Assembly (NCBI GenBank): GCA_017545905.1
Contig: JAFWXL010000021.1
Coordinates: forward strand, 1 to 50,200
Direction: 5' to 3'
DNA length: 50,200 nt
Source: Clostridia bacterium
GTDB taxonomy: Bacteria; Bacillota; Clostridia; Christensenellales; Aristaeellaceae
The notes below the pieces were generated by a model. The model ran no database searches. It was not told the origin of the DNA and saw only the letters and a program-made list of their open reading frames with translations. The position numbers and the translations under genes are program-made. Shown here piece by piece: positions 6,868-21,596 of the stretch (position 1 is its first letter; each line of letters opens with the position of its first letter).

Positions 6868-7614
6868 ATGGAAAATGACGTTTTGATTCTGGAAGGCGAG
6901 CGCATCGATGATCTGCAGAGAGATGGTCTTCGCATCATTCAGCGCACGGACGGATTCCGTTTCGGGACGGACGCCGTGCTGCTGGCGGATTTTGCCGGCG
7001 TGAAGAAGGGCGAGCATGTGGCAGATGTGGGCACGGGCACGGGCGTTTTGCCGCTGCTCCTCTCTGCACGGGCGCAGGATACGACGTTTGATGCCTTTGA
7101 GATTCAGGAAGGCGTGGCGGACATGGCCATGCGCAGCGTGCGCCTGAACGATCTGACGCCGCGTATCCGCATTCACCATGCGGACTGCCGCGACGCCGCC
7201 GGAATCATCGGTCATGAGCGCTGCCATCTGGTGGTCACCAATCCGCCCTATACAAAGGGCGGCGCCGGGCTGGTGAGCCCGGAGCAGACGCGCGCGCTGT
7301 CGCGAAGCGACTCGGATTGCCCGCTTGAGGCGTGGATGCTTGCCTGCGGCAGGCTGCTCAAAAACGGGGGCAGGCTGTGCTGCGTGTTTCCTGCGCCGCG
7401 CTTTCTGGAACTGTGCGATGCGATGCGCCATGCGCGTGTGGAGCCCAAGCGCGTGCGCTTTGTCGCAGCCAGGGTGTCGTGCAGCCCGAAACTGGTGCTT
7501 GTGGAAGGGCTCAAGGGTGCAAGGCCGGGGCTGCACATGCAGCCTCTGCTCATTACGCATGACGAACAGGGAAACTTTACGCAGGAGATGCGAAGGATCT
7601 ACGGCGAGGAATGA
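6868..7614 (+). CDS. TrmN6/YfiC-type N6-adenine methyltransferase
   Basis: A 248-residue Rossmann-fold SAM-dependent methyltransferase of COG4123, whose E. coli member (YfiC/TrmN6) methylates adenine 37 of tRNA1-Val. Visible features: RFGTDAVLLADFA near residue 32, SAM-binding motif I VADVGTGTGVLPLLL near 50-64, acidic loop FEIQ, and the amino-methyltransferase motif TNPPYTKGG near 122-130. N-PP-Y is the catalytic motif for methylating exocyclic adenine amines. The start follows GGAAAGGACAGG. It has a promoter of its own. The substrate in this organism is inferred from family only. Confidence 0.85.
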   Translation: MENDVLILEGERIDDLQRDGLRIIQRTDGFRFGTDAVLLADFAGVKKGEHVADVGTGTGVLPLLLSARAQDTTFDAFEIQEGVADMAMRSVRLNDLTPRIRIHHADCRDAAGIIGHERCHLVVTNPPYTKGGAGLVSPEQTRALSRSDSDCPLEAWMLACGRLLKNGGRLCCVFPAPRFLELCDAMRHARVEPKRVRFVAARVSCSPKLVLVEGLKGARPGLHMQPLLITHDEQGNFTQEMRRIYGEE

Positions 7615-7617
7615 TCT

Positions 7618-8439
7618 TCAAAGGGTGAAGCGCCGCTTGTTCTCTCTGTCGCAGAGAATGGCCAGTGTGAAGGACAGCAGGCATGAGAGCAGCGAGGCAA
7701 GCGAACCTGTGGCAAAATAGAGCATCAGCAGCAGAAACGCACACAGCAGATAGCGGCGCAGCTTGGAGGCGGAGAGCGCAAGCGCTCTGATTCGCTGCCA
7801 GGAGAAAGGCTTTTTCTGCCGGGCCTGATGGCGCGCGATATCCTCGTCCGTTGCCGGATGCAGCCTGCCGGACAGGAGCGCCAACTGCCTGCCGCTGATC
7901 AGGCGTATGGGCGGGTCGGCCCACTCCGCTGCGCGCGTGGCTTCGGGCGTAAATGCTGCCGTGCAGGCGAGGGCGACCTTGTCTGCGCCGCATTCGATCC
8001 GCGCGCGGTGTGCGCTGAGCACGTCGCCCTGACCGGCACTGGTGCCGGGCAGACATTGCGCAAGGCGCACCAGCCATGTTTCGCCTGCATAGCGCATCTG
8101 GCTGCCTTCAAGGCTTTCCCCGCCCAGCGTATCGCACAGCAGGATGCACACGCGTCTGCCTGCCGCGGCGTTGGGCAGCATGATCAGCTCATCCAGCGCG
8201 ATCATGCCGCCGATACGCTCGCGCAGCATCCGCTCGCGCGCGCTGATGGTGCGCTTTTCTATGAGCATGATTGTCAGGCTGACGAGTACAAAGAGCGCGC
8301 AGCCGGCTGCAAGGCCCAGAGGCCCGCTCTGCCACAGAAAGAAAAAATATGCCACGCACAGCGCGAGAATCAGTGCGCGAAGCGCCAGCCGGTCCAGCGC
8401 GCTGGCCAGCGCATTCTTGCTCTCAAAGGGTGAAGTCAC
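7618..8439 (-). CDS. Membrane protein with Mrr-like domain, function unknown
   Basis: A 273-residue protein not assigned to a named family. Two hydrophobic segments (about 22-36 and 41-61) and a C-terminal hydrophobic hairpin (about 229-263) flank a cytosolic region. Residues about 123-194 read like the core of the Mrr/NERD-type restriction-endonuclease fold, in particular VALACTAAFTPEATRAAEW followed by IRLISGRQLALL, which is the usual TNS.FTP.A..LA ... I.LIDG..L..L tail of Mrr domains. The catalytic D...ExK is not evident: the equivalent strand reads HRARIECGADKVALA. It starts at GTG with GGAGG 10 nt upstream, and ends 4 nt from the convergent methyltransferase gene. The fold is inferred from pattern only; nuclease activity is doubtful. 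Confidence 0.7.
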   Translation of the reverse strand: MTSPFESKNALASALDRLALRALILALCVAYFFFLWQSGPLGLAAGCALFVLVSLTIMLIEKRTISARERMLRERIGGMIALDELIMLPNAAAGRRVCILLCDTLGGESLEGSQMRYAGETWLVRLAQCLPGTSAGQGDVLSAHRARIECGADKVALACTAAFTPEATRAAEWADPPIRLISGRQLALLSGRLHPATDEDIARHQARQKKPFSWQRIRALALSASKLRRYLLCAFLLLMLYFATGSLASLLSCLLSFTLAILCDRENKRRFTL

Positions 8440-8513
8440 GGCAGTTCCTCCGGAATTATGTATGATGACATATGTAGTTTTTTCTTTTTTTCAAATTGTA
8501 TTCCATACCCTCT

Positions 8514-8541
8514 TTGAAAACAGGCGGGAATTTGGTATAAT
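8514..8541 (+). promoter_or_regulatory. Promoter of the nadD operon
   Basis: TTGAAA (8514-8519), 16-nt spacer, TATAAT (8536-8541) with an extended TGG just before it. It lies 41 nt upstream of the nadD start. Confidence 0.75.
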
Positions 8542-8582
8542 ACCTTGTTGGATGTCATTTTCGGCGAAAGGGATGAATCGCG

Positions 8583-9200
8583 ATGCGGCAGATCGGTCTG
8601 ATGGGCGGCAGCTTCAATCCCATTCACTGCGGCCATCTGAACATGGGCCGTGCGGCGCTGGAATGCGGCGCGGTGGAGCAGGTGCTCTTTCTGCCCTCGG
8701 GCAATCCGCCGCATAAGCGTGCGGGGCTGGAGGACAAGATGCACCGCCTTGCGATGGCACGCCTTGCCGTTGCGGGTGAAAAGGACATGGATGTGTGCAC
8801 GGAGGAGATTGAGCGAGAAGGCGTGATCTACACGGTGGATACACTGACGATTCTGCAAAAGAAAATGCCGGATTGCCGGTTCCGCTATCTGATCGGCGCG
8901 GACACGCTGTGCGCGCTGCACACGTGGCGGAGGCCGGAAGATGTGATCAGGCTGTGTGAGCTTCTTGTGGTGATGCGTCCCGGCGAGGACGAAACCCGGA
9001 TTCTGGCGGACGCTGAAAGCTGGCGTGCGCGCGGCGCACAGATCGATTTCCTGCCGGCAAAGAGGATGGATGTTTCCTCAACGCTGATCCGTGCGCGATT
9101 GGCGCAGGGGCAGGCGCTGGAGGGCCTTGTGCCCGGACCGGTGGAGACATATATCCGCACACACGGACTCTATGGAACGCATGGAGATATGGCCCGATGA
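8583..9200 (+). CDS. nadD: Nicotinate-nucleotide adenylyltransferase
   Basis: Transfers AMP from ATP to nicotinate mononucleotide, making deamido-NAD in the shared de novo and salvage NAD pathway. At 205 residues the length is normal. It has the nucleotidyltransferase signature GGSFNPIHCGH (residues 9-19), LPSGNPPHK near 39-47 and C-terminal VSSTLIRARL (ISSTxIR motif). The start follows GAAAGGG by about 10 nt. Its stop overlaps the yqeK start by 4 nt. nadD-yqeK-rsfS is the conserved Firmicutes order. Confidence 0.96.
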   Translation: MRQIGLMGGSFNPIHCGHLNMGRAALECGAVEQVLFLPSGNPPHKRAGLEDKMHRLAMARLAVAGEKDMDVCTEEIEREGVIYTVDTLTILQKKMPDCRFRYLIGADTLCALHTWRRPEDVIRLCELLVVMRPGEDETRILADAESWRARGAQIDFLPAKRMDVSSTLIRARLAQGQALEGLVPGPVETYIRTHGLYGTHGDMAR

Positions 9201-9763
9201 AACGAGAGAAGATGGAATTCAAGCTCAAAAAGGAGCTGGACCGTCAGCGCTTTGAGCACACGCTGGGCGTGGAGAAGACGGCGGTCAATATGGCGCGCAT
9301 CTTTGGCGAGGATGAGGAACAGGCAGCGCTGGCAGGGCTGCTGCACGACTGCGCAAAGTGCCTGCCGCTTTCCCAGATGGTCAAGGCCGCCAGGCATGAG
9401 GATATTGATCCCGTGATGAAGGAATCCAAGGCGCTCATGCATGCGCTGGCAGGTATGTGCATCGCCAGAGACGTCTACGATGTCAAGGATGAAGCGGTGC
9501 TCTCTGCCATCCGCTGGCATACGACTGGACACGCGCAGATGACCGCGCTGGAGAAAATCGTCTATCTGGCCGATATGATTGAGCCGTGCCGCAAGCCCTA
9601 TCCGGGGCTGGATACGCTGCGCGAGCTGTGCATGCACGATCTGGATCAGGCGATGCATACGGCGCTGCGCATGAGCCTTGACCACGTCAGGGAGCAGGGG
9701 AAGACGCTGCATCCGGATACGCTGGCGGCGCTGAAAACCTATGAACCCGAACTAGAAGCATAA
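9197..9763 (+). CDS. yqeK: YqeK-type HD-domain Ap4A hydrolase
   Basis: HD-superfamily phosphohydrolase of the YqeK family, shown in other bacteria to cut diadenosine tetraphosphate symmetrically into two ADP. The 188 residues carry the metal ligands in order: FEHTLGVEKTA (His), LLHDCAKCLP (the His-Asp pair), later HALAG and IRWHTTGH, and LADMIEP (Asp). Its ATG overlaps the nadD stop (ATGA), so the two are probably translationally coupled. Confidence 0.93.
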   Translation: MKREKMEFKLKKELDRQRFEHTLGVEKTAVNMARIFGEDEEQAALAGLLHDCAKCLPLSQMVKAARHEDIDPVMKESKALMHALAGMCIARDVYDVKDEAVLSAIRWHTTGHAQMTALEKIVYLADMIEPCRKPYPGLDTLRELCMHDLDQAMHTALRMSLDHVREQGKTLHPDTLAALKTYEPELEA

Positions 9764-9764
9764 T

Positions 9765-9779
9765 CCGGGCGGCGCCCGG
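9765..9779. other. Short GC hairpin between yqeK and rsfS
   Basis: CCGGGCGGCGCCCGG forms a compact stem directly after the yqeK stop. No T-run follows, so it may stabilise or pause the transcript rather than terminate it. Confidence 0.4.
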
Positions 9780-9818
9780 GTATCAACCAGGACTGAAGAC
9801 CAGGAGGAAAACAGAGAT

Positions 9819-10190
9819 ATGGAAACCAGAGAGATTGCGCTGCTTGCAGCGAAGGCCCTTGATGATAAGCGCGGCAAGGATATCACCGTGCTCAAAGTGG
9901 ACGAGATGACCGTGATCACCGATTACATGGTGATCGCCACCGGCCGCAGCGTGCCGCAGGTGAAGGCGCTGGCTGACAATGTCGAGGAGGAGCTGGGCAA
10001 GCTCGAACTTGATCCCAAGCGCCGCGAGGGCTATACCGAGGGCCGCTGGTGCGTGCTGGATTACGGCGATGTGATGGTGCATGTGTTCCATGAGCAGGAC
10101 CGCGAGTATTATCAGCTGGAGCGCCTCTGGGCGGACGGTACCAACGAACTGGAGCTCTCCTTTGAGAAGGATGCATCCGAGCAGGCCTGA
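9819..10190 (+). CDS. rsfS: Ribosomal silencing factor RsfS
   Basis: RsfS (Iojap family) binds ribosomal protein L14 and blocks joining of the subunits when nutrients are low. The 123-residue protein has the full family pattern: LAAKALDDKRGKDITVLKV, TDYMVIATGRS, near-C-terminal GRWCVLDYGDVMVHVF and REYYQLERLW. AGGAGG precedes the ATG by about 10 nt. It is third in the nadD operon, the usual place. Confidence 0.96.
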   Translation: METREIALLAAKALDDKRGKDITVLKVDEMTVITDYMVIATGRSVPQVKALADNVEEELGKLELDPKRREGYTEGRWCVLDYGDVMVHVFHEQDREYYQLERLWADGTNELELSFEKDASEQA

Positions 10191-10206
10191 TCGCGGAGGT
10201 TTCGCT

Positions 10207-10806
10207 ATGCCGAAAAGGAAAGATTTGCTGCTGATCGTGCTGGTGCTGGCGCTGGCTGCCGCGATGCTGGGCGTTTCCAAGTTCATGCCCAGAACGGATA
10301 TCAGCGAAAAGACCGCTGACGCGACGCTTGCGCCGGATGCGATCGAGTATGTTGCCACGCCTGAACCGACCGCAGCGCCGACTGTGCAGCCCACGGCTGC
10401 GCCGACCGCAGCGCCGGAGCAGGAAATGACTGAGGAACCGACTGCGCAGCCCGCGGCTGAGCCGACCGAGGCACCCGCTCAGGAACAGGCGATGGTTGGT
10501 CCGATGCCGCCTAAGAAAGTGGAGGTCGTGCGCGGCCATGTGATCCTGACGGTGGGCGGCCGCCAGTACGGCGATCCGATTCCGATGGATCGCGACAAGA
10601 TCATCACCCTGCTGCAGGATGACGGCAAGATCAACAAGGTGCATATCACGCCTGAGAAGGTCTACATGGAGTCGTCCACCTGTGACAATCAGGATTGCGT
10701 GCAGCAGGGCGAGGTTCACGTGGATACGCATCAGCAGCGTATTCTGGGCTGCTACATCATTTGCCTGCCCAATAACGTGAGCATTGAGATGGTTCCTGCC
10801 GAGTGA
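10207..10806 (+). CDS. NusG domain II-containing membrane-anchored protein
   Basis: A 199-residue protein with an N-terminal membrane anchor (residues about 7-25), a long Pro/Ala/Thr/Glu linker (about 45-95) and a C-terminal NusG domain II (about 105-197). The domain shows VILTVGGRQYGDPIPM, KVYMESSTCDNQDCVQQGEV (the paired-Cys motif of the family) and GCYIICLPNNVSIEM. This is not the transcription factor NusG; it is the extracytoplasmic family that in Clostridia typically precedes the Gx transporter, as here, and often travels with FMN-binding proteins. GGAGG lies 8 nt before the start. Biochemical role unknown. Confidence 0.88.
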   Translation: MPKRKDLLLIVLVLALAAAMLGVSKFMPRTDISEKTADATLAPDAIEYVATPEPTAAPTVQPTAAPTAAPEQEMTEEPTAQPAAEPTEAPAQEQAMVGPMPPKKVEVVRGHVILTVGGRQYGDPIPMDRDKIITLLQDDGKINKVHITPEKVYMESSTCDNQDCVQQGEVHVDTHQQRILGCYIICLPNNVSIEMVPAE

Positions 10807-10841
10807 GGCGGGCATTCCCGACAAGAGAGGAAGTTATTTTC

Positions 10842-11354
10842 ATGCGCAACAAGCGCGCGCAGAGTATTGCGCTTTCCGGGCTGCTGACCAGCCTGATGCT
10901 GGTTTTCGGTCTGATTGAGCGCCAGTTTCCGCTGACAGCGGCGATACCCGGTGTAAAGCTGGGTCTGGCGAATTCCGTGCTGCTCTACAGCCTGTATATG
11001 CTGGGCGTCAAGCAGTCCTTTGTGCTGATGCTGCTCAAGGCGCTGATGAGCTGGCTGATCTATACGAACATGAACGCCATGTTCTATTCGCTGGGCGGCG
11101 GCCTGTTCTCGCTGGTCGTGATGATCCTTGTCAGCAGGATGAAGGGCGTGAGCATCATCGGCGTGAGCGCACTGGGCGCAGTGTTTTTCAATGTCGGCCA
11201 GATTCTGGTTGCTGTGTTCATGCTGAATACCCCGCAGCTTATCTTTACCTATCTGCCGATCCTCATGATTTCCGGCGTGGTTACCGGTGTGCTCACCGGC
11301 GTCGTTGCACAGATGGTCATGAAGCATCTCAGGGCGATGGGCACGCGCAGGTGA
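10842..11354 (+). CDS. Gx transporter family membrane protein
   Basis: A 170-residue integral membrane protein of the family labelled Gx transporter or, historically, heptaprenyl diphosphate synthase component I. Conserved blocks: PGVKLGLANSVLLYSLYMLG, MFYSLGGGLFSLVVM, IGVSALGAVFFNVGQILVA and YLPILMISGVVTGVLTGVV. It is probably a small-molecule uptake S-component-like protein with about five or six membrane segments. GAGAGGAAG lies about 9 nt upstream. It forms an operon with the NusG-II gene. Involvement in quinone or flavin supply for extracellular electron transfer is inference from the usual neighbourhood. Confidence 0.88.
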   Translation: MRNKRAQSIALSGLLTSLMLVFGLIERQFPLTAAIPGVKLGLANSVLLYSLYMLGVKQSFVLMLLKALMSWLIYTNMNAMFYSLGGGLFSLVVMILVSRMKGVSIIGVSALGAVFFNVGQILVAVFMLNTPQLIFTYLPILMISGVVTGVLTGVVAQMVMKHLRAMGTRR

Positions 11355-11358
11355 CAGG

Positions 11359-11432
11359 AGGGGATGTTGGGGCTGCGTCCCTGAGACCCGCATGGGGAAA
11401 CCTCCCCAGACTCCATCTTCACTTCGCGCTTG
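11359..11432 (+). repeat. 3'-end palindromic repeat, copy 2
   Basis: Begins 5 nt after the Gx transporter stop, in the same orientation as the gene. Segments in order: GGGATGTTGGGG, CTGCGTCCCTGA, ACCCGC, TGGGGAAACCTCCCCA hairpin, then GACTCCATCTTCACTTCGCG. The last block matches GACTCCCTTCTTCGCTTCGC in the minus-strand copies. Confidence 0.75.
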
Positions 11433-11451
11433 TTTTCAGAAGCTATACTGT

Positions 11452-11483
11452 AAAACGCCTCCGGCATTGCCGGGGGCGTTTTT
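11452..11483. terminator. Terminator between Gx transporter and degV
   Basis: ACGCCTCCGGC and GCCGGGGGCGT pair across an ATT loop, with AAAA before and TTTTT after, so it can serve both converging genes. Confidence 0.8.
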
Positions 11484-11503
11484 CGGATATCTTTCTTGAA
11501 GCC

Positions 11504-11570
11504 GCAGCGAAGCGAAGAAGGGAGTCTGAGGGAAGATGTTCCTCAGACGGGCCCGGGCGGCAGCCCGGCG
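11504..11570 (-). repeat. 3'-end palindromic repeat, copy 3
   Basis: Abuts the degV stop codon at 11571 and reads in the degV sense on the minus strand: GCCGGGCTGCCGCCCGGGC, GTCTGAGGAA/TTCCCTCAG hairpin, then ACTCCCTTCTTCGCTTCGCT. Same family as copies 2, 5 and 6. Confidence 0.78.
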
Positions 11571-12416
11571 TCACTCCGCCTCGACGAACACCAGACCGAA
11601 CACGCCAGGGCCAACGTGTGTGCCGATCGTTGCGCCGACGGGGTGGATGTCGTTGCCCTTGCATGAGATTCCAGTCTGATTGAGCTTCTTGACGAAGCTC
11701 AGGCAGTTGTCCGGATTATAGGTATACAGCGGCATGACAGGGAAGCGCTCGTCAATCCTGTGCTGCTCGATGAGCTTGAGCAGGCCGGCGCTGGCGCGGT
11801 GCAGGCCCATGCCCTTGCCGGCAAGGGCAACCTTGCCCTCGTCGTTGAGGGTGATGAATACCTTGAGCTGCACAAGGGAGCCGAGGCTGGCGGCGGCCTG
11901 CGGAATGCGTCCGCCGCGGGCGAGATAGTCGAGCGTATCCAGACAGCCGTAAAGCCGGATACGTCCGCAGAAGCGGCGAAGCTCTTCAGCGATTTCACCG
12001 GCGGTGAGGCTGCCTTCGCCGCGCAGCTGGCAGGCGCGTAGCACAAGCATCTTTTCGGCAGTGGCTGCGAGCATGGAGTCGACGATGTGGATATCGTCGT
12101 ATTCGATCATGCTTCTGGCGAGCGTCGCGCTCTGCACGGTGCCGGACAGGCCGGAGGAGAGCAGCACGCACACGACGCTGTCGCCGGCTGCCTTTGCCTC
12201 TTCAAAGACGCTCAGAAAAGCGTCGGGCGTCGGCTGCGAGGTCTTGGGGTTCTCGCCGGACATGATGCGATTCCAGAAGATATCCGGCGTCAGCGTAACG
12301 CCGTCTTCATAGGCGTCGCTGCCAAAGACAATCTGCAGCGGCACGGCGGTAATGTGATGTGTATACAGTTCTGCGGCGGAAAAATCCGCCGCAGAATCGG
12401 TGATGATTCGGATCAT
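11571..12416 (-). CDS. DegV family fatty-acid-binding protein
   Basis: DegV proteins bind a fatty acid and, as FakB subunits, present it to the kinase FakA. The 281-residue protein has the family start IITDSAADF, the SQPTPDAF block (residues about 59-66), the fatty-acid carboxylate-binding loop LLSSGLSGTVQSA near 85-97 and LDYLARGGRI in the C-terminal half. The late IGTHVGPGVFGLVF is also typical. The start is preceded by AAGGAAA. No FakA-like kinase is in the window, so the partner must lie elsewhere. It is followed by repeat copy 3. Confidence 0.92.
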   Translation of the reverse strand: MIRIITDSAADFSAAELYTHHITAVPLQIVFGSDAYEDGVTLTPDIFWNRIMSGENPKTSQPTPDAFLSVFEEAKAAGDSVVCVLLSSGLSGTVQSATLARSMIEYDDIHIVDSMLAATAEKMLVLRACQLRGEGSLTAGEIAEELRRFCGRIRLYGCLDTLDYLARGGRIPQAAASLGSLVQLKVFITLNDEGKVALAGKGMGLHRASAGLLKLIEQHRIDERFPVMPLYTYNPDNCLSFVKKLNQTGISCKGNDIHPVGATIGTHVGPGVFGLVFVEAE

Positions 12417-16843: not shown

Positions 16844-17302
16844 TCACAGAGAAGCGAGAATGCGAACGACACTGGCGAGCGACTCATTGAGCTCGCGGAA
16901 TTCGGAGACGGTCAGGCCGTCTGCCTGAAGCTGAATCTGTCGGGCGATGGTTGCACGGATTGCGGCGAGCTTTTCCTTGCCGGCTTCCAGCAGCACAATG
17001 TTGACCACGCGGCGATCGTTTTCGTCGTGCTGGCGGTCGACATAGCCGGACTCATACAGGCGATCCACCAGCGGCGTGATGTTCGGCTTGGCAATGCCAA
17101 GACGACGGGAAATCTCGCTGACGGACATCGTGCCCACATCGTTGAGCATGGCCAGAACCTGCACATGAGAAAGAGGCGTGCCGTGCTCGCGCTGCACAAG
17201 ATCCATGTGCAGCAGACGCTTTTTGATCAGGGGAAGAATGTGGAACATATTCTGTGCGACGTTGTCAATCATCGCAGGATCAATCGTACGTTTCTTTGTC
17301 AT
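16844..17302 (-). CDS. MarR family transcriptional regulator
   Basis: A 152-residue winged-helix protein. SHVQVLAMLNDVGTMSVSEI then RRLGIAKPNITPLVDRLYESGYV gives the helix-turn-helix (about residues 45-85), and RQHDENDRRVVNIVLLEAGKEKL is the wing with its conserved D.R. The start at 17302 has AGGAG 8 nt upstream; the longer in-frame reading to 17350 lacks one. It is a single gene. Target and ligand are unknown; a possible operator lies in its upstream region. Confidence 0.9.
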   Translation of the reverse strand: MTKKRTIDPAMIDNVAQNMFHILPLIKKRLLHMDLVQREHGTPLSHVQVLAMLNDVGTMSVSEISRRLGIAKPNITPLVDRLYESGYVDRQHDENDRRVVNIVLLEAGKEKLAAIRATIARQIQLQADGLTVSEFRELNESLASVVRILASL

Positions 17303-17621
17303 ATGCGCTACTCCTGATAGTCTGTATTTCACGGGAGCGCATTTTTGCAATGCGATTCCGGATCAAAACGAACACATTTTACAGGTTTTATAACGAAACT
17401 GCAAGAGGAAATCCTGATGTTTTCACAATTATTCTGTATTTCGTGAAATGGTCATAAAAAACAAAGCGGCTTTAGGGGGATTCGCTTATGAAAATATGGT
17501 TATTTTGCGGCCTGTACAGGAAAAAAGCACAAAGCGCCGAAGGCTGCAGGAAGCATGCGCATAGATGGCAGGGCGGCCTTGCAGGATGACTGCACACGGG
17601 CGTGAGAAGTTTTGCCGTCGC
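17303..17621. other. Intergenic region with paired CTGTATTTC motifs
   Basis: Holds the marR upstream region and the leader of the motor operon. CTGTATTTC occurs at 17322-17330 and again at 17434-17442, the second as part of the palindrome ATTTCGTGAAAT (17438-17449). These could be binding sites for the adjacent MarR protein. From 17450 to 17621 I recognise nothing; riboswitch families I can recall do not fit. Confidence 0.35.
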
Positions 17622-17650
17622 TTTACAGATCGGCATAAATCGGTTACAAT
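17622..17650 (+). promoter_or_regulatory. Promoter of the MotA/OmpA-like operon
   Basis: TTTACA (17622-17627), 17-nt spacer, TACAAT (17645-17650), about 48 nt before the start codon. Confidence 0.65.
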
Positions 17651-17697: not shown

Positions 17698-19269
17698 ATG
17701 GATATTCTGACGCTGCTCAAAGGCATTTTTTCGCTGGATACGGTGATCTATCTGGCCATTTTGCTGGTGCTGTTTTATGCCATGGCGCGCTGCCTGATTC
17801 CACTTGCTCTGCTTGGCGGCAAGCTGCGCCGCGCTGCGCGCGTGATCATTACGGAAAACAAGCAGAATAAAGAAAAGAAATCGTGGAATGATATCCACTT
17901 CCTTGGCGACAGGCTGGAGGGGACGTGGGCGGATTTCCTTCAGAATGCCGAGATGCGCGATGCGCACGGCGAGAGCTGCGATGTGACCCAGTTTATCAAT
18001 GAGGACACGGTGATCTTTGCTGTGGGCAGCCCGCGTCTGGCGGAAATCACGCCCGGCATCCTGACCTCTCTGGGCATTCTGGGCACGTTCCTTGGCCTTG
18101 TGCTGGGTCTGTCCGGCCTGAATCTCAATGCGGCGGATACCTCTGCGCTCCTTGCTGCGATGGAAAAGCTCATCGGCGGCATGAGCACGGCGTTCCTGAC
18201 GTCCATTGCCGGCGTTATTGCCTCGCTGGTGTTCAACCTGCTCAATACGCACTACACCAATAAATGTGAAAAGGCGATTGACCGCTTCTGCGAGGTGTTC
18301 AGCCTCTATGCGCTGCCCAAGCCTGTGTCACAGGATACGGCTATGCTCACCCTTGCGCAGGAGCAGACGGCTTATATCCGTCAGGCTGTGGAGGATGTGA
18401 GCCAGAAGATGGCTGTGCAGATGGAGCAGAGCATTCTGCGTGCCATGCTGCCCGTGCAGCGTTCGATGGATAATTTCATTCTGGCTGCCACGCAGGCGCA
18501 GGTCGAGGGCGTCGACCGCATCGCGCAGGTGTTTGTGCAGCGCATGAATACGGTGCTGGCAGGCGAGTTTGACCGGCTCAGGCAGATTCTGCGCGAGACG
18601 GGCGCCCAGCAGCAGAAATCTCAGCAGGAGATGCGCGCGGCGACCGAGGCCATTGCGCAGATGACGCAGGACGTGGTGAACATGCATCAGCTCTCTCAGG
18701 GTGTGCTGGAGCATTTCCGCGACTATGTGAACGATCTGGATGCTTCCCGCACGCATGTGGAGGAGACAAACCAGAAGACGCTCGAGCTGCTTGCCGCCAT
18801 GAACAAGACCAGCGGACAGCAGGCGATGTATCTGGCAAAGCTGCAGGATTATCAGGCGGCGCTGACGGCAAACCAGCAGCAGTATGCCGCGTGGACGGAC
18901 AAATTCCTCGCCAGCGCGCAGGAGCAGACGCGCATCACATCCCGGGAGATGGACCGCGTTGTCGAGCAGCTGCATGAGGGCGCACAGGCGTTGTCGGGCA
19001 GCTATGACACCTTCACCAAGAAGACGCAGGAGAACATGGCCAGAACCACGGCGCTCTTTGACGAGAGCATCACCACGTCGATCCGCCAGATGAATGAGAC
19101 GCTGGATACCATGCGCGAGACGACGCGCGTGATGCCGCAGCTGCTCAGCCAGAGCCGCGAGCGCTATGCCGAGCAGGTGGATCAATTTGTCACTGCGCTG
19201 GTCAGGCTGCAGAAATCCATGGAAAAGCTTGGCAATGTGATCGACGCTGCGGATAAGAAGGAGGAGTAA
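17698..19269 (+). CDS. MotA/TolQ/ExbB-type channel protein with long helical tail (ZorA-like)
   Basis: A 523-residue inner-membrane protein. TM1 is at about 16-39; a cytosolic stretch with RLEGTWADFLQNAE follows; TM2 (about 120-140) contains PGILTSLGILGTFLGLVLGL and TM3 (about 162-183) contains STAFLTSIAGVIASLVFNLL, the two helices that line the proton path in MotA/TolQ/ExbB. Residues about 200-520 are almost entirely helical, Gln/Glu/Met-rich and free of hydrophobic segments, predicting a very long cytosolic coiled coil. That layout is the one known for ZorA of the Zorya defence system, not flagellar MotA (4 TM, no tail). AAGGAAGGGACA precedes the ATG. It is 3 nt from the OmpA-like gene, so they are co-transcribed. 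No flagellar genes are nearby. Function in defence, transport or wall linkage is open. Confidence 0.85.
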   Translation: MDILTLLKGIFSLDTVIYLAILLVLFYAMARCLIPLALLGGKLRRAARVIITENKQNKEKKSWNDIHFLGDRLEGTWADFLQNAEMRDAHGESCDVTQFINEDTVIFAVGSPRLAEITPGILTSLGILGTFLGLVLGLSGLNLNAADTSALLAAMEKLIGGMSTAFLTSIAGVIASLVFNLLNTHYTNKCEKAIDRFCEVFSLYALPKPVSQDTAMLTLAQEQTAYIRQAVEDVSQKMAVQMEQSILRAMLPVQRSMDNFILAATQAQVEGVDRIAQVFVQRMNTVLAGEFDRLRQILRETGAQQQKSQQEMRAATEAIAQMTQDVVNMHQLSQGVLEHFRDYVNDLDASRTHVEETNQKTLELLAAMNKTSGQQAMYLAKLQDYQAALTANQQQYAAWTDKFLASAQEQTRITSREMDRVVEQLHEGAQALSGSYDTFTKKTQENMARTTALFDESITTSIRQMNETLDTMRETTRVMPQLLSQSRERYAEQVDQFVTALVRLQKSMEKLGNVIDAADKKEE

Positions 19270-19272
19270 CCC

Positions 19273-20211
19273 ATGCGCCCGGGAAAGAAAAGGCGGCGCA
19301 GCGGGGAAAACGGCAGCTATTGGATCTCGTATTCCGATATGATGGCCGGTATGCTCTTTACGTTTGCGCTGATCCTGTTTATGGCGATTTATCAACTGGT
19401 GGATCTGCAGCAGAAGAAGACCATCGAACTGCAGACCAAGGAAGCGCAGCTTTCCACCCAGCAGAGCATCCTGCTGGACCAGGAGGCGCAGCTTCAGGAC
19501 AAGGAAGAGCTTCTTGCCGCAACCACCCTGATGCTTCAGCAGCAGCAGCAGGAACTCGACGAAAACCGCACTGCGCTCACGGCTGCCCAGCAGAGCCTGT
19601 CCCTGCAGCAGAGCAAGATCGAGGAACAGGCGGCGCTGCTGGCAGCCCAGCAAACGGAGATCGACAAGCTGATCGGTCTGCGCTCGCGCATCATTGAGGA
19701 GCTGCGCGATGAGCTTCGCAGCGCGGGGCTTGACGCTGTGGTTGACCGCAACACCGGTGCGATCGCATTTACCGGCGCCGTCCTCTTTGACAGCAACCAG
19801 AATACGCTCAAGGAAAGCGGCAAGGCGCTGCTCAATGCATTTATTCCAGTCTATATCCGCACACTGATGAGCGAGGAAAACGAGGGCTATGTCGGCGAGA
19901 TCATCGTCGAGGGCCACACCGATACTGCCGGCACCTATCTGCACAATCTTGCGCTTTCGCAGGAACGCGCGCTGGCTGTGGCGCAGTATTGTCTGGGCGG
20001 CGAGATGACGGTGCTGACCGCACAGGAAAAGAAGATGCTGGAAAACATTCTCACCGCCAATGGACGTTCCTATGCCGATCCTGTGTATATGCCTGACGGT
20101 GTGACGGTGGATATGGAGGCGTCCAGACGCGTGGTATTCAAATTCCGCATGAAGGATGCGGAGATGATTGATCAGATGAGCGAGATTCTGGAAGGACAAC
20201 AGGGGGATTGA
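19273..20211 (+). CDS. MotB/OmpA-like stator protein (ZorB-like)
   Basis: A 312-residue partner of the preceding channel. One transmembrane helix (about 24-45) starts with SYSDMMAGMLFTFALILF; Asp22 sits where MotB and ZorB carry the proton-binding Asp. Residues about 48-145 form a Gln/Leu/Glu-rich coiled coil. The C-terminal domain (about 160-305) is OmpA-like: VLFDSNQNTLKESG, VEGHTDTAGTYLHNLALSQERA, with the His, Asp and Arg that contact peptidoglycan in the family. It would anchor a proton-driven motor to the wall. Its stop is 1 nt before the next start. The spacer between LAVAQYCL and the last strand is longer than in short OmpA domains. Confidence 0.86.
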   Translation: MRPGKKRRRSGENGSYWISYSDMMAGMLFTFALILFMAIYQLVDLQQKKTIELQTKEAQLSTQQSILLDQEAQLQDKEELLAATTLMLQQQQQELDENRTALTAAQQSLSLQQSKIEEQAALLAAQQTEIDKLIGLRSRIIEELRDELRSAGLDAVVDRNTGAIAFTGAVLFDSNQNTLKESGKALLNAFIPVYIRTLMSEENEGYVGEIIVEGHTDTAGTYLHNLALSQERALAVAQYCLGGEMTVLTAQEKKMLENILTANGRSYADPVYMPDGVTVDMEASRRVVFKFRMKDAEMIDQMSEILEGQQGD

Positions 20212-20212
20212 C

Positions 20213-20707
20213 GTGTATAAAGTGATGAAGATTCTGGCGATCGCGGTGCTGATTGTCACGATCGCGGGCGCGGGCGCTGTGCTCTATGGAATCAGGACGC
20301 TTTCTCCCGTTGTGGAGCAGGTTTATGTGACTGTCACGCCGGCTGGCGACGCGCAGGACGTCTTTGACGGCGCGCTTGCTCAGGTGGCGGACGGCACGTT
20401 TACAGGGCGCGTGTTCAGTGCCGGTGCGGCGCCGGATGCCGAGGAATGTACGTTTCTGACGTATACCGTCCGCCTTGCAAACCGGGGCTTTTTCCCCGCA
20501 GAGTGGGTTTCGCTGGATGTGCAGCCGGTTGAGGGCGATGTGCTTCAGCTGGACAATGTGCAGGCCAATGTGCTTGCAAGCGGCAGCCAGGGGGATATCG
20601 CTGCGACGATCCTGCATGCCGGCGACGCCGCTGCGACCAGCCGGAACTATACGATCCAGTGCTATGTCTTTGGCAGGAAAACCACGCTGCAGGGCAGCAC
20701 ACAGTAA
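20213..20707 (+). CDS. Small membrane-anchored protein of the motor operon, unknown function
   Basis: A 164-residue protein that I do not recognise. One N-terminal transmembrane helix (about 7-27) is followed by an extracytoplasmic domain of about 135 residues with alternating hydrophobic strands (TYTVRLANRGFFPAEWVSLDV, GDVLQLDNVQANVL, NYTIQCYVFGRK), which suggests a beta-sandwich. It starts at GTG, with AGGGGGA overlapping the end of the OmpA-like gene, and is tightly coupled to it. Its position implies a role with the motor, perhaps as a third membrane subunit or a wall-side sensor. It does not resemble ZorC, ZorD or ZorE as I know them. Confidence 0.75.
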   Translation: MYKVMKILAIAVLIVTIAGAGAVLYGIRTLSPVVEQVYVTVTPAGDAQDVFDGALAQVADGTFTGRVFSAGAAPDAEECTFLTYTVRLANRGFFPAEWVSLDVQPVEGDVLQLDNVQANVLASGSQGDIAATILHAGDAAATSRNYTIQCYVFGRKTTLQGSTQ

Positions 20708-20732: not shown

Positions 20733-20771
20733 AAAAAAGAAGGACCGCAGGCCTGCGATCCTTCTTTTTCT
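20733..20771. terminator. Shared terminator of converging operons
   Basis: AAGAAGGACCGCAGG pairs with TGCGATCCTTCTT with small mismatches; A-rich before and TTTTTC after, so it can stop transcription both ways. Confidence 0.8.
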
Positions 20772-20789: not shown

Positions 20790-21596
20790 TCAGCGGCAGG
20801 CGCAGCCAAAGCCTGCGTAGGCATTGGCCGCCGGCGCATTGCAGCCGAGGCCGGTCGTGCTGGAATATGTACCGCAGGTGCAGCTGACGTTGCGCGCGCG
20901 CAGCATCTCATCGCTGCACTGGGCCTGCGGAAAGAGCGGCAGGCTGAAAAACTCATCGCATACGGAGTCGGCAAATTCCTCGCACGGCGGCACCTCGCAG
21001 AATCCGTAGCTCGGAACGAGGATCTCTACCTTGGCGAGTACCTTGAGAATTGCGGTCACGCAGACCTCAAGCTCGAAGATGTTGTTGCCGACATATGTAC
21101 CGGAGACGCAGATGGCGGAGACCATCGCCTCGATGGTATAGGGCACGATCGATTCGTCCGGGATGGAGAGCAGCACGTCGCGGTCGATCGTGACGATACC
21201 GCGGCCGATGTATTCGCGGCCGTTTGCATCGGTGAAGAGGATATCGATGGGGACGTCGATCTGGCAGCGCACGCGGGCAAAGCACGGGCGGTCACACAGG
21301 CGCTCAACAGAGAGATTGCGGATGGTGCCCTCGGTTGTCGTGGAGCGGCAGCTTTCAAATGTAATGGGCATCACCGGCTGTGTGCAGGCGTCACTGTGTT
21401 CGCCGCCGCAGGGCACGAGGCCGTAGCTGACGAGCGTGACGCGCTGCTGGCTGAGCTGTTCCTGATACAGACAGCTGTCGTATACGCGCTGCACCTGAAT
21501 GCAGACCCTTTCATTCAGGCCGCTGAGCACTTCATTTGCGCTGACGCTGCAGGGACAATGGGTGGAATGTGCGTTCTTATAGGAGTAGAAGCTCAT
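20790..21596 (-). CDS. Cysteine-rich protein, probable spore coat component
   Basis: A 268-residue soluble protein with 21 Cys, many spaced along the chain and ending in a Gly/Cys-rich tail (TCGTYSSTTGLGCNA ... FGCACR). The middle (about 95-200) has strands such as RVRCQIDVPIDILFTDANG, REYIGRGIVTIDRDVLLSIP and NIFELEVCVTAILKVLAKV, which resemble the SPOCS/DUF3794 repeats of spore-coat and SipL-type proteins. There is no signal peptide. AAGGAGG lies before the start. It sits beside spoIIP and sigG. A disulfide-cross-linked spore coat or exosporium role is inferred from composition and location. Confidence 0.68.
   Translation of the reverse strand: MSFYSYKNAHSTHCPCSVSANEVLSGLNERVCIQVQRVYDSCLYQEQLSQQRVTLVSYGLVPCGGEHSDACTQPVMPITFESCRSTTTEGTIRNLSVERLCDRPCFARVRCQIDVPIDILFTDANGREYIGRGIVTIDRDVLLSIPDESIVPYTIEAMVSAICVSGTYVGNNIFELEVCVTAILKVLAKVEILVPSYGFCEVPPCEEFADSVCDEFFSLPLFPQAQCSDEMLRARNVSCTCGTYSSTTGLGCNAPAANAYAGFGCACR

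Follow-up and report, generated by a model that had tools for sequence, protein, structure and literature searches.

The closest described relatives of the operon considered here are the Zorya anti-phage systems, in which a ZorA/ZorB motor pair is joined by ZorC, with its EH signature, and ZorD, an SNF2 helicase with an Mrr-like nuclease, in type I, by the HNH effector ZorE in type II, and by ZorF and ZorG in type III. PMC11890865 treats such pairs as 5:2 membrane motors and describes a ring of Ser/Thr residues surrounding the ZorB Asp, which is D24 in type I and D21 in type II. PMC12505986 separates Zorya from the flagellar and the generic ion transporters (GITs), describes GIT B subunits as having no OmpA domain, and omits Zorya from its phylogeny. 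The window analysed here, a stretch of 50,200 nucleotides from a Clostridia bacterium of the family Aristaeellaceae (order Christensenellales; contig JAFWXL010000021.1, positions 1 to 50,200), holds at positions 17698 to 20707 a three-gene operon, A-B-C, in which A and B resemble ZorA and ZorB. We suggest, with moderate confidence, that the operon encodes a motor of the Zor type that grips the wall and belongs to the core equipment of the cell, maintaining the envelope or sensing the wall, and that it is not an effector system of phage defence. Sequence comparison places the pair in its motor family; its function is inferred.

A motor pair of the ZorA/ZorB family

Gene A (17698..19269, plus strand) encodes a ZorA-like channel subunit of 523 residues with three transmembrane (TM) segments at about 16-39, 114-132, and 164-182 and a helical cytoplasmic tail of 318 residues. 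After 3 bp it is followed by gene B (19273..20211, plus strand), encoding a ZorB-like protein of 312 residues with one TM segment (25-43) right after Asp22, a coiled linker, and an OmpA-type peptidoglycan-binding domain. Gene C (20213..20707, plus strand, GTG start), a further 1 bp downstream, encodes a family-specific protein of 164 residues with a single TM segment (7-25) and an outward domain; all TM segments were assigned by simple hydropathy. A preliminary description made from the letters had already read three tightly packed genes with these topologies, and the coordinates, TM counts, Asp22, and tail length agree with it. All three genes are coding and under purifying selection, with nonsynonymous-to-synonymous ratios (dN/dS) against two congeners of about 0.09-0.13 for A, 0.07-0.10 for B, and 0.15-0.19 for C.

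Pfam matches A to MotA_ExbB (27.1 bits) and B to OmpA (39.7 bits, E value 6e-10). The best PADLOC models are ZorA1 for A (1.3e-24), which is also matched by the ZorA2 and ZorA3 models, and ZorB1 for B (7e-66), and all matches to the NCBIfam ZorA/ZorB models stay under the curated cut-offs (e.g., 80.7 versus 100 and 77.7 versus 400). The top PDB matches of the A profile are ZorA structures (8qyd, 3e-31; 8vvn, 2.6e-29), the remaining ones being coiled-coil or helical proteins, and no MotA, ExbB, or TolQ structure is matched at E<=0.01. The B profile likewise has ZorB structures on top (8vvi, 1e-28; 8qyd, 2e-28; 8vvn, 7e-20), with MotB at 2e-10. These sequence profiles assign the pair to the ZorA/ZorB family, to which it is closer than to MotAB, ExbB, or Tol, bearing out the motor pair that had been proposed.

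Asp22 of B is invariant in 16 aligned sequences, as are H215, T216, D217, N225, S229, and R232 of the OmpA-domain motif H-T-D...N..LS..RA. In A, T130, T168, and S169 are invariant across 34 sequences, and T130 and S169 align with T147 and S184 of Escherichia coli ZorA when counted along the profile alignment; we take the latter two to be functional sites and the counterparts of the residues in A. The A tail, counted past residue 205, contains four Pro residues, and its length ranges from 273 to 345 residues in 34 aligned sequences including that of the window, with 30 of the 34 falling between 303 and 323, a near-constancy suggesting that the length matters.

Compared with Zorya type I, A and B are homologous over the channel, tail, TM segment, and OmpA domain, and the ion-site residues are retained, whereas the solved ZorA chains of that type are longer (696 and 729 residues). 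The ZorB of 8vvi, the best PDB match of B, is probably of type II, where the ZorA chain has 378 residues and A is the longer one; 8vvn was taken as type I and 8vvi as type II from their chain lengths of 696 and 378 and the residue ranges in PMC11890865. The ZorA2 and ZorA3 matches tie the pair to types II and III as well. The flagellar stator MotAB shares the OmpA-type B subunit, the ion-binding Asp, and the motor superfamily, but differs in that A here has three TM segments, that B is far nearer to ZorB than to MotB by profile, that A has no MotA match, and that the genus of this genome (hereafter the own genus) has no FliG in the 23 genomes searched. ExbB and TolQ have an A subunit with three TM segments, as in A here.

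Core distribution and the search for Zorya effectors

A is present in all 36 of the nearest family genomes (the own genome, 28 others of the own genus, and 7 of other genera) and, weakly, in one of 24 genomes from other families of the order. In an even sample of 150 family genomes, B was found in 140, covering 47 of 50 genera and 82 of 85 high-quality genomes; elsewhere in the class it occurs in 18 of 244 genomes at E<=1e-30, and no match was found among 72,556 plasmid records at E 1e-12. The best 80 of at least 559 relatives confirmed by a scan of genome contigs, here called the named loci, include Candidatus Ventricola, Onthenecus, and Limiplasma, of which Ventricola is placed by NCBI in Eubacteriales incertae sedis. 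The distribution of AB is that of a core pair, unlike the patchy, mobile, defence-island pattern.

The search for FliG, which within the family covered the own genus, gave 0 of 23 genomes, against one of 14 genomes of other families and four of 14 control genomes. Omp85, a marker of the outer membrane, is absent from 26 family genomes and present in seven of 14 controls. Together with the spread of the pair, these absences mark AB as a core pair of a monoderm-looking group that, in the own genus at any rate, has no flagella. The preliminary description had named a regular place inside flagellar, Tol-Pal, or gliding loci as speaking against its system, and the loci that we read are neither flagellar nor of the Tol-Pal kind.

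An energiser of transport or surface movement, similar to ExbBD or Gld/Agl, would belong to the same superfamily of 5:2 motors (PMC11890865), as do ExbBD, TolQR, and AglRS among the GITs. We nevertheless consider this role very improbable, as no outer membrane marker appears in the 26 family genomes, the A profile has no ExbB/TolQ structure match, B carries the OmpA domain that the GIT B subunits do not have (PMC12505986), and none of 12 recurring neighbour clusters, judged by eye, is TonB-, Tol-, or Gld-like.

PADLOC finds no ZorC, ZorD, ZorE, ZorF, or ZorG among the operon proteins and no match of any kind for C, and C resembles no nuclease or helicase in Pfam or PADLOC; with no PADLOC match to rest on, C was dismissed as a possible hidden ZorC or ZorE. 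The same library detects ZorE in the Zorya II locus L249, which serves as the control for that model, and ZorF and ZorG had no positive control. At the genome level, ZorC (PF15611) is absent from the 26 family genomes and present in the controls G394 and G428, though not in G407, a third genome of the class. Full-length ZorD is likewise absent from all 26 (controls: G394, 1122 bits; G428, 814 bits), where partial matches over the helicase core occur throughout with a best score of 253 bits. For ZorE, ZorF, and ZorG, the absence refers to the operon, no genome-wide search of the family having been made. The lack of ZorC, ZorD, and ZorE had been noted for the operon itself, and for ZorC and ZorD it now extends to the sampled family genomes. 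By membership, A-B-C is not a Zorya system, despite the ZorAB kinship.

True Zorya systems are found in other Clostridia, namely type I with ZorC and ZorD in L234 and L235 and type II with ZorE in L249. In the tree of B (40 rows), the 19 rows taken as family form one clade (93/85), and three Lachnospiraceae rows and one long-branched row stand next to it (together 98/99). The family, these four neighbouring rows, the Zorya I and II rows, and L233 are separated from the group of TPR and f32 loci described below (100/100). In the tree of A (37 rows), where long branches come together, the family does not form a single clade (2 changes). Counting the named loci as family members is an assumption of ours in either tree.

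These placements bear on the possibility that the locus is still anti-phage, with AB sensing phage disturbance of the wall and driving an effector encoded elsewhere, as a core defence outside the islands. A and B are Zor family proteins, the B of L234, L235, and L249 groups with the B studied here, that of the type I loci standing close to it, and in L128, L140, and L233 the gene after a ZorAB-like pair encodes a protein with a distant resemblance to ZorC, with no ZorD alongside (hhalign E 1e-5, probability 82), although PADLOC does not match these third proteins and Pfam gives them no real match. On the other side, AB is spread through 47 of the 50 genera, in almost all of the genomes sampled, and not patchily, B lacks plasmid matches, ZorC and ZorD are missing from the family genomes searched, and C faces outward and matches no nuclease or helicase. 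We therefore regard an anti-phage role as unlikely.

Because AB is distributed as a core gene would be, calling it a "minimal Zorya" is misleading. A large gut-bacterial family keeps a Zorya-type motor as a core pair and, with no known effector at hand, the motor itself must pay its way, so that what a ZorAB motor does alone becomes directly testable. We found no literature report of ZorAB as an effector-free core motor, with most subscription papers outside our reach and the novelty accordingly unproven. Should the reading as a core wall device be true, defence as in Zorya would represent one role within a broader motor family. It might have arisen from housekeeping motors, or they from it. 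Defence catalogues that rely on ZorA together with ZorB may list core motors under Zorya. At 17698-20211 of the window, the PADLOC matches of A and B are strong, and a relaxed two-gene rule would call Zorya here.

Protein C, the slot after B, and the M15 neighbours

C is a family-specific, single-copy core gene, found with a single match each in 133 of the 150 family genomes and in none of 244 other genomes of the class. Neither Pfam nor PDB offers a usable match to the C profile, the best PDB hit being an immunoglobulin (Ig)-type protein at E 0.59 and the Pfam tallies being weak; a beta/Ig-like fold of the outward domain is our guess.

C lies immediately after B in 65 of the 80 named loci. 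The gene calling behind the MarR and M15 neighbour counts for these loci took wrong frames in GC-rich ones, which is corrected in the counts given below for the slot after B. Among the 130 sampled family genomes with both genes, C follows B on the same strand in 80, across 24 genera, with a gap of 3-148 bp between the hidden Markov model (HMM) matches, a count that could miss a C next to B at contig ends. The linkage count entered B of 139 of the 140 genomes, the one left out (G172) having no C match and thus not affecting it. By genus, 23 have only linked and 20 only unlinked C, and the one mixed genus, g39, owes its status to a single exception (G135) with just an 84-residue C fragment. Of the 50 genomes with unlinked C, the C locus was read in 41: C is divergent from polA, followed by coaE, in 20, stands beside a homologue of the window's spore-coat-like gene in four (L178, L181, L182, and L185), and has varied neighbours in the remaining 17.

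When C is away, the slot after B is mostly filled by another, unrelated outward protein with one TM segment, about 187 residues long, which follows B on the same strand in 39 of 52 B loci without adjoining C (43 from family genomes and nine named loci taken as close kin). Five contigs, judged by their equal lengths, are present twice (L170/L257, L165/L255, L159/L265, L160/L281, and L162/L287), and the de-duplicated count is 35 of 47. The gene lies within 315 bp of B in 34 cases, one of which overlaps B by 22 bp, and at about 2.7-2.9 kb in five, with an alpha-L-rhamnosidase gene between where checked (L170). Two of the 12 different loci without this protein, L290 and L291, come from genomes without a C match. 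The slot protein gives a weak SnoaL/NTF2-like hint in Pfam (E 0.008 in one and 0.02 in another of the three members scanned, 0.064 in L162) and in PDB (E 0.33 and 0.98, ranked under an unrelated match at 0.11), and neither it nor C has a Pfam family above cut-off. That it and C could be one family was rejected after profile comparison (probability 1.6). With the slot refilled in this way, AB is accompanied by a small outward partner in most members, though not always by the same protein.

The preliminary description had proposed that the small third protein replaces the effector, and had named an unlinked third protein in related genomes as speaking against its system. C turned out to be unlinked in 20 genera, partly so in one, and linked in 23, and its replacement of an effector finds no favour in its outward orientation, its absence from the 244 genomes outside the family, and its position after B in only 80 of the 130 genomes. 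What survives is the motor with a small outward partner, with the correction that the partner is not always C. C and the other slot protein alike suggest that it is on the wall side that such motors gain new tasks.

It is possible, if doubtful, that AB is an operon of its own and that C is an unrelated core gene which adjoins it by chance in some genera. C is core in its own right, its seat beside polA recurs in about half of the unlinked loci read, and it has no profile relation to the other slot protein. Chance adjacency sits poorly, however, with a linkage that spans 24 genera and is constant within genera, with the refilling of the slot by a protein of similar topology, and with the single terminator in the window, which stands after C. 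This intrinsic terminator (20734..20769, plus strand; -20.1 kcal/mol, z -4.8), a strong stem with a U run behind it, closes the A-B-C operon and was identified from folding energy, a simple pattern scan not having listed it.

A hint of what the outward partner may serve comes from an enzyme gene nearby. A gene of the Peptidase_M15 family (PF01427; D-Ala-D-Ala dipeptidase family) lies downstream of C, in the same orientation, in 16 of the 80 named loci, the 16 copies being one family by clustering with one member checked in Pfam, and the Pfam E values in three proteins range from 2e-39 to 9e-58. Single-frame fusions of C and M15 occur in L136 (11092-12264; 390 residues, M15 at 192-389) and L212 (4119-5318, minus strand; 399 residues, M15 at 201-398), both from one genus (genomes G034 and G105). 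Simple hydropathy gives an N-terminal hydrophobic segment in 12 of the 16 stand-alone copies, making export likely for these 12. An M15 gene also stands next to unlinked C, convergently, in five of the 41 loci. By their family membership only, the M15 proteins are predicted peptidases.

A near-universal motor without a known phage-killing part and with an outward partner suggests routine cell-wall work. In the mechanism that we propose, A and B would assemble in a 5:2 ratio into a ZorAB-type membrane motor driven by ions, the OmpA domain of B would hold peptidoglycan, and ions flowing past Asp22 in B and the Ser/Thr sites in A would rotate or strain A. The A tail of about 318 residues, reaching at most about 48 nm as a single straight helix, could then pass the motion or strain to a putative cytoplasmic partner. 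C, anchored in the membrane and facing outward, would probably sit at the wall-facing side of the motor, presumably in contact with AB, and C or its substitute may couple the motor to the turnover of the wall; the only direct hint of such coupling comes from the M15 neighbours and fusions. A more specific version, in which AB is a core non-defence branch of ZorAB serving the monoderm wall as a rotary motor that grips peptidoglycan, has a tail of near-constant length and an exchangeable outward partner, and is coupled to the trimming of peptidoglycan peptides, is possible but tentative.

Several observations weigh against a core wall device. Defence is the role of the nearest relatives whose activity is known, and the class itself also contains true Zorya I and II. 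The separation of C from B in 50 of the 130 genomes weakens a physical link between C and AB. The M15 neighbour is found in a minority of loci only, and the N-terminal segment is lacking in four of the 16 M15 copies after C and in all five away from AB, so that these nine copies may be cytoplasmic.

Flanking genes and other motor loci

Upstream of A and divergent from it lies a gene for a MarR-family protein (16844..17350, minus strand; Pfam MarR, 3e-16). A MarR homologue on the opposite strand, two to three genes ahead of B, is present in 22 of the 80 named loci and one stands beside the locus in another genus as well (L087), and the MarR-family protein is a probable regulator of the operon; a search for inverted repeats upstream of A as a MarR site found none. 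A promoter-like site of the sigma-70 type (17622..17650, plus strand; TTTACA-17-TACAAT) precedes A and matches 10 of 12 consensus positions, by consensus only, being one of four such sites in the region where 1.4 are expected.

Downstream, and convergent with C, is a spore-coat-like gene (20790..21596, minus strand), which has no Pfam match and reaches NF052457 at E 0.02, below the cut-off; it is an adjoining gene and a candidate only for membership in the system. The own-genus neighbourhood further includes spoIIP, a sigma-70-type factor that looks like sigG by eye, and spoIVB (Pfam). These sporulation neighbours recur in several congeners, and the flanks are conserved across much of the genus. 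Such company, and the coat-like gene beside unlinked C in four of the 41 loci, would suit a motor driving sporulation-linked wall remodelling, e.g., engulfment or coat assembly. We think this quite unlikely, as neighbours of this kind are limited to part of the genus, with nrdR, an M15 gene, or others following C elsewhere (nrdR in six deeper members), and the promoter-like site is of the vegetative type.

Further arrangements of the pair occur in other Clostridia. In L236, L239, L241, L243, L248, and L250, from other families, the protein encoded after a ZorAB-like pair is soluble, conserved, and about 320 residues long; it forms one family by BLAST and contains TPR repeats in L241 (Pfam), with no Pfam match in L236. 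These loci are another effector-free ZorAB arrangement. L237, L238, L242, L244, and L246 belong to one family (f32) with shorter A frames (361-378 amino acids) and a B, followed by a similar row of genes on the opposite strand.

Some family genomes hold second B-like matches within far longer open frames (562-810 amino acids), which among the matches listed are G031:C129, G068:C59, G137:C331, and G161:C25. Matches to A were recorded in G004 (L071) and G025 (L070). In the own genome, which is 78% complete, Pfam MotA_ExbB is found in A and one other protein only. A second putative motor of this genome lies in L072 (G000:C4), where three genes on the minus strand (7555-9225, 9236-10807, and 10842-12149) encode a fusion of a MotA_ExbB core with EAL, a protein with a MotB-like Asp TM segment (by eye) and a SpaA prealbumin-like fold, and a fusion of HD with a bacterial sugar transferase. 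The genes behind them are of the polysaccharide type by eye, which suggests that the L072 motor is coupled to cyclic di-GMP (c-di-GMP) and exopolysaccharide.

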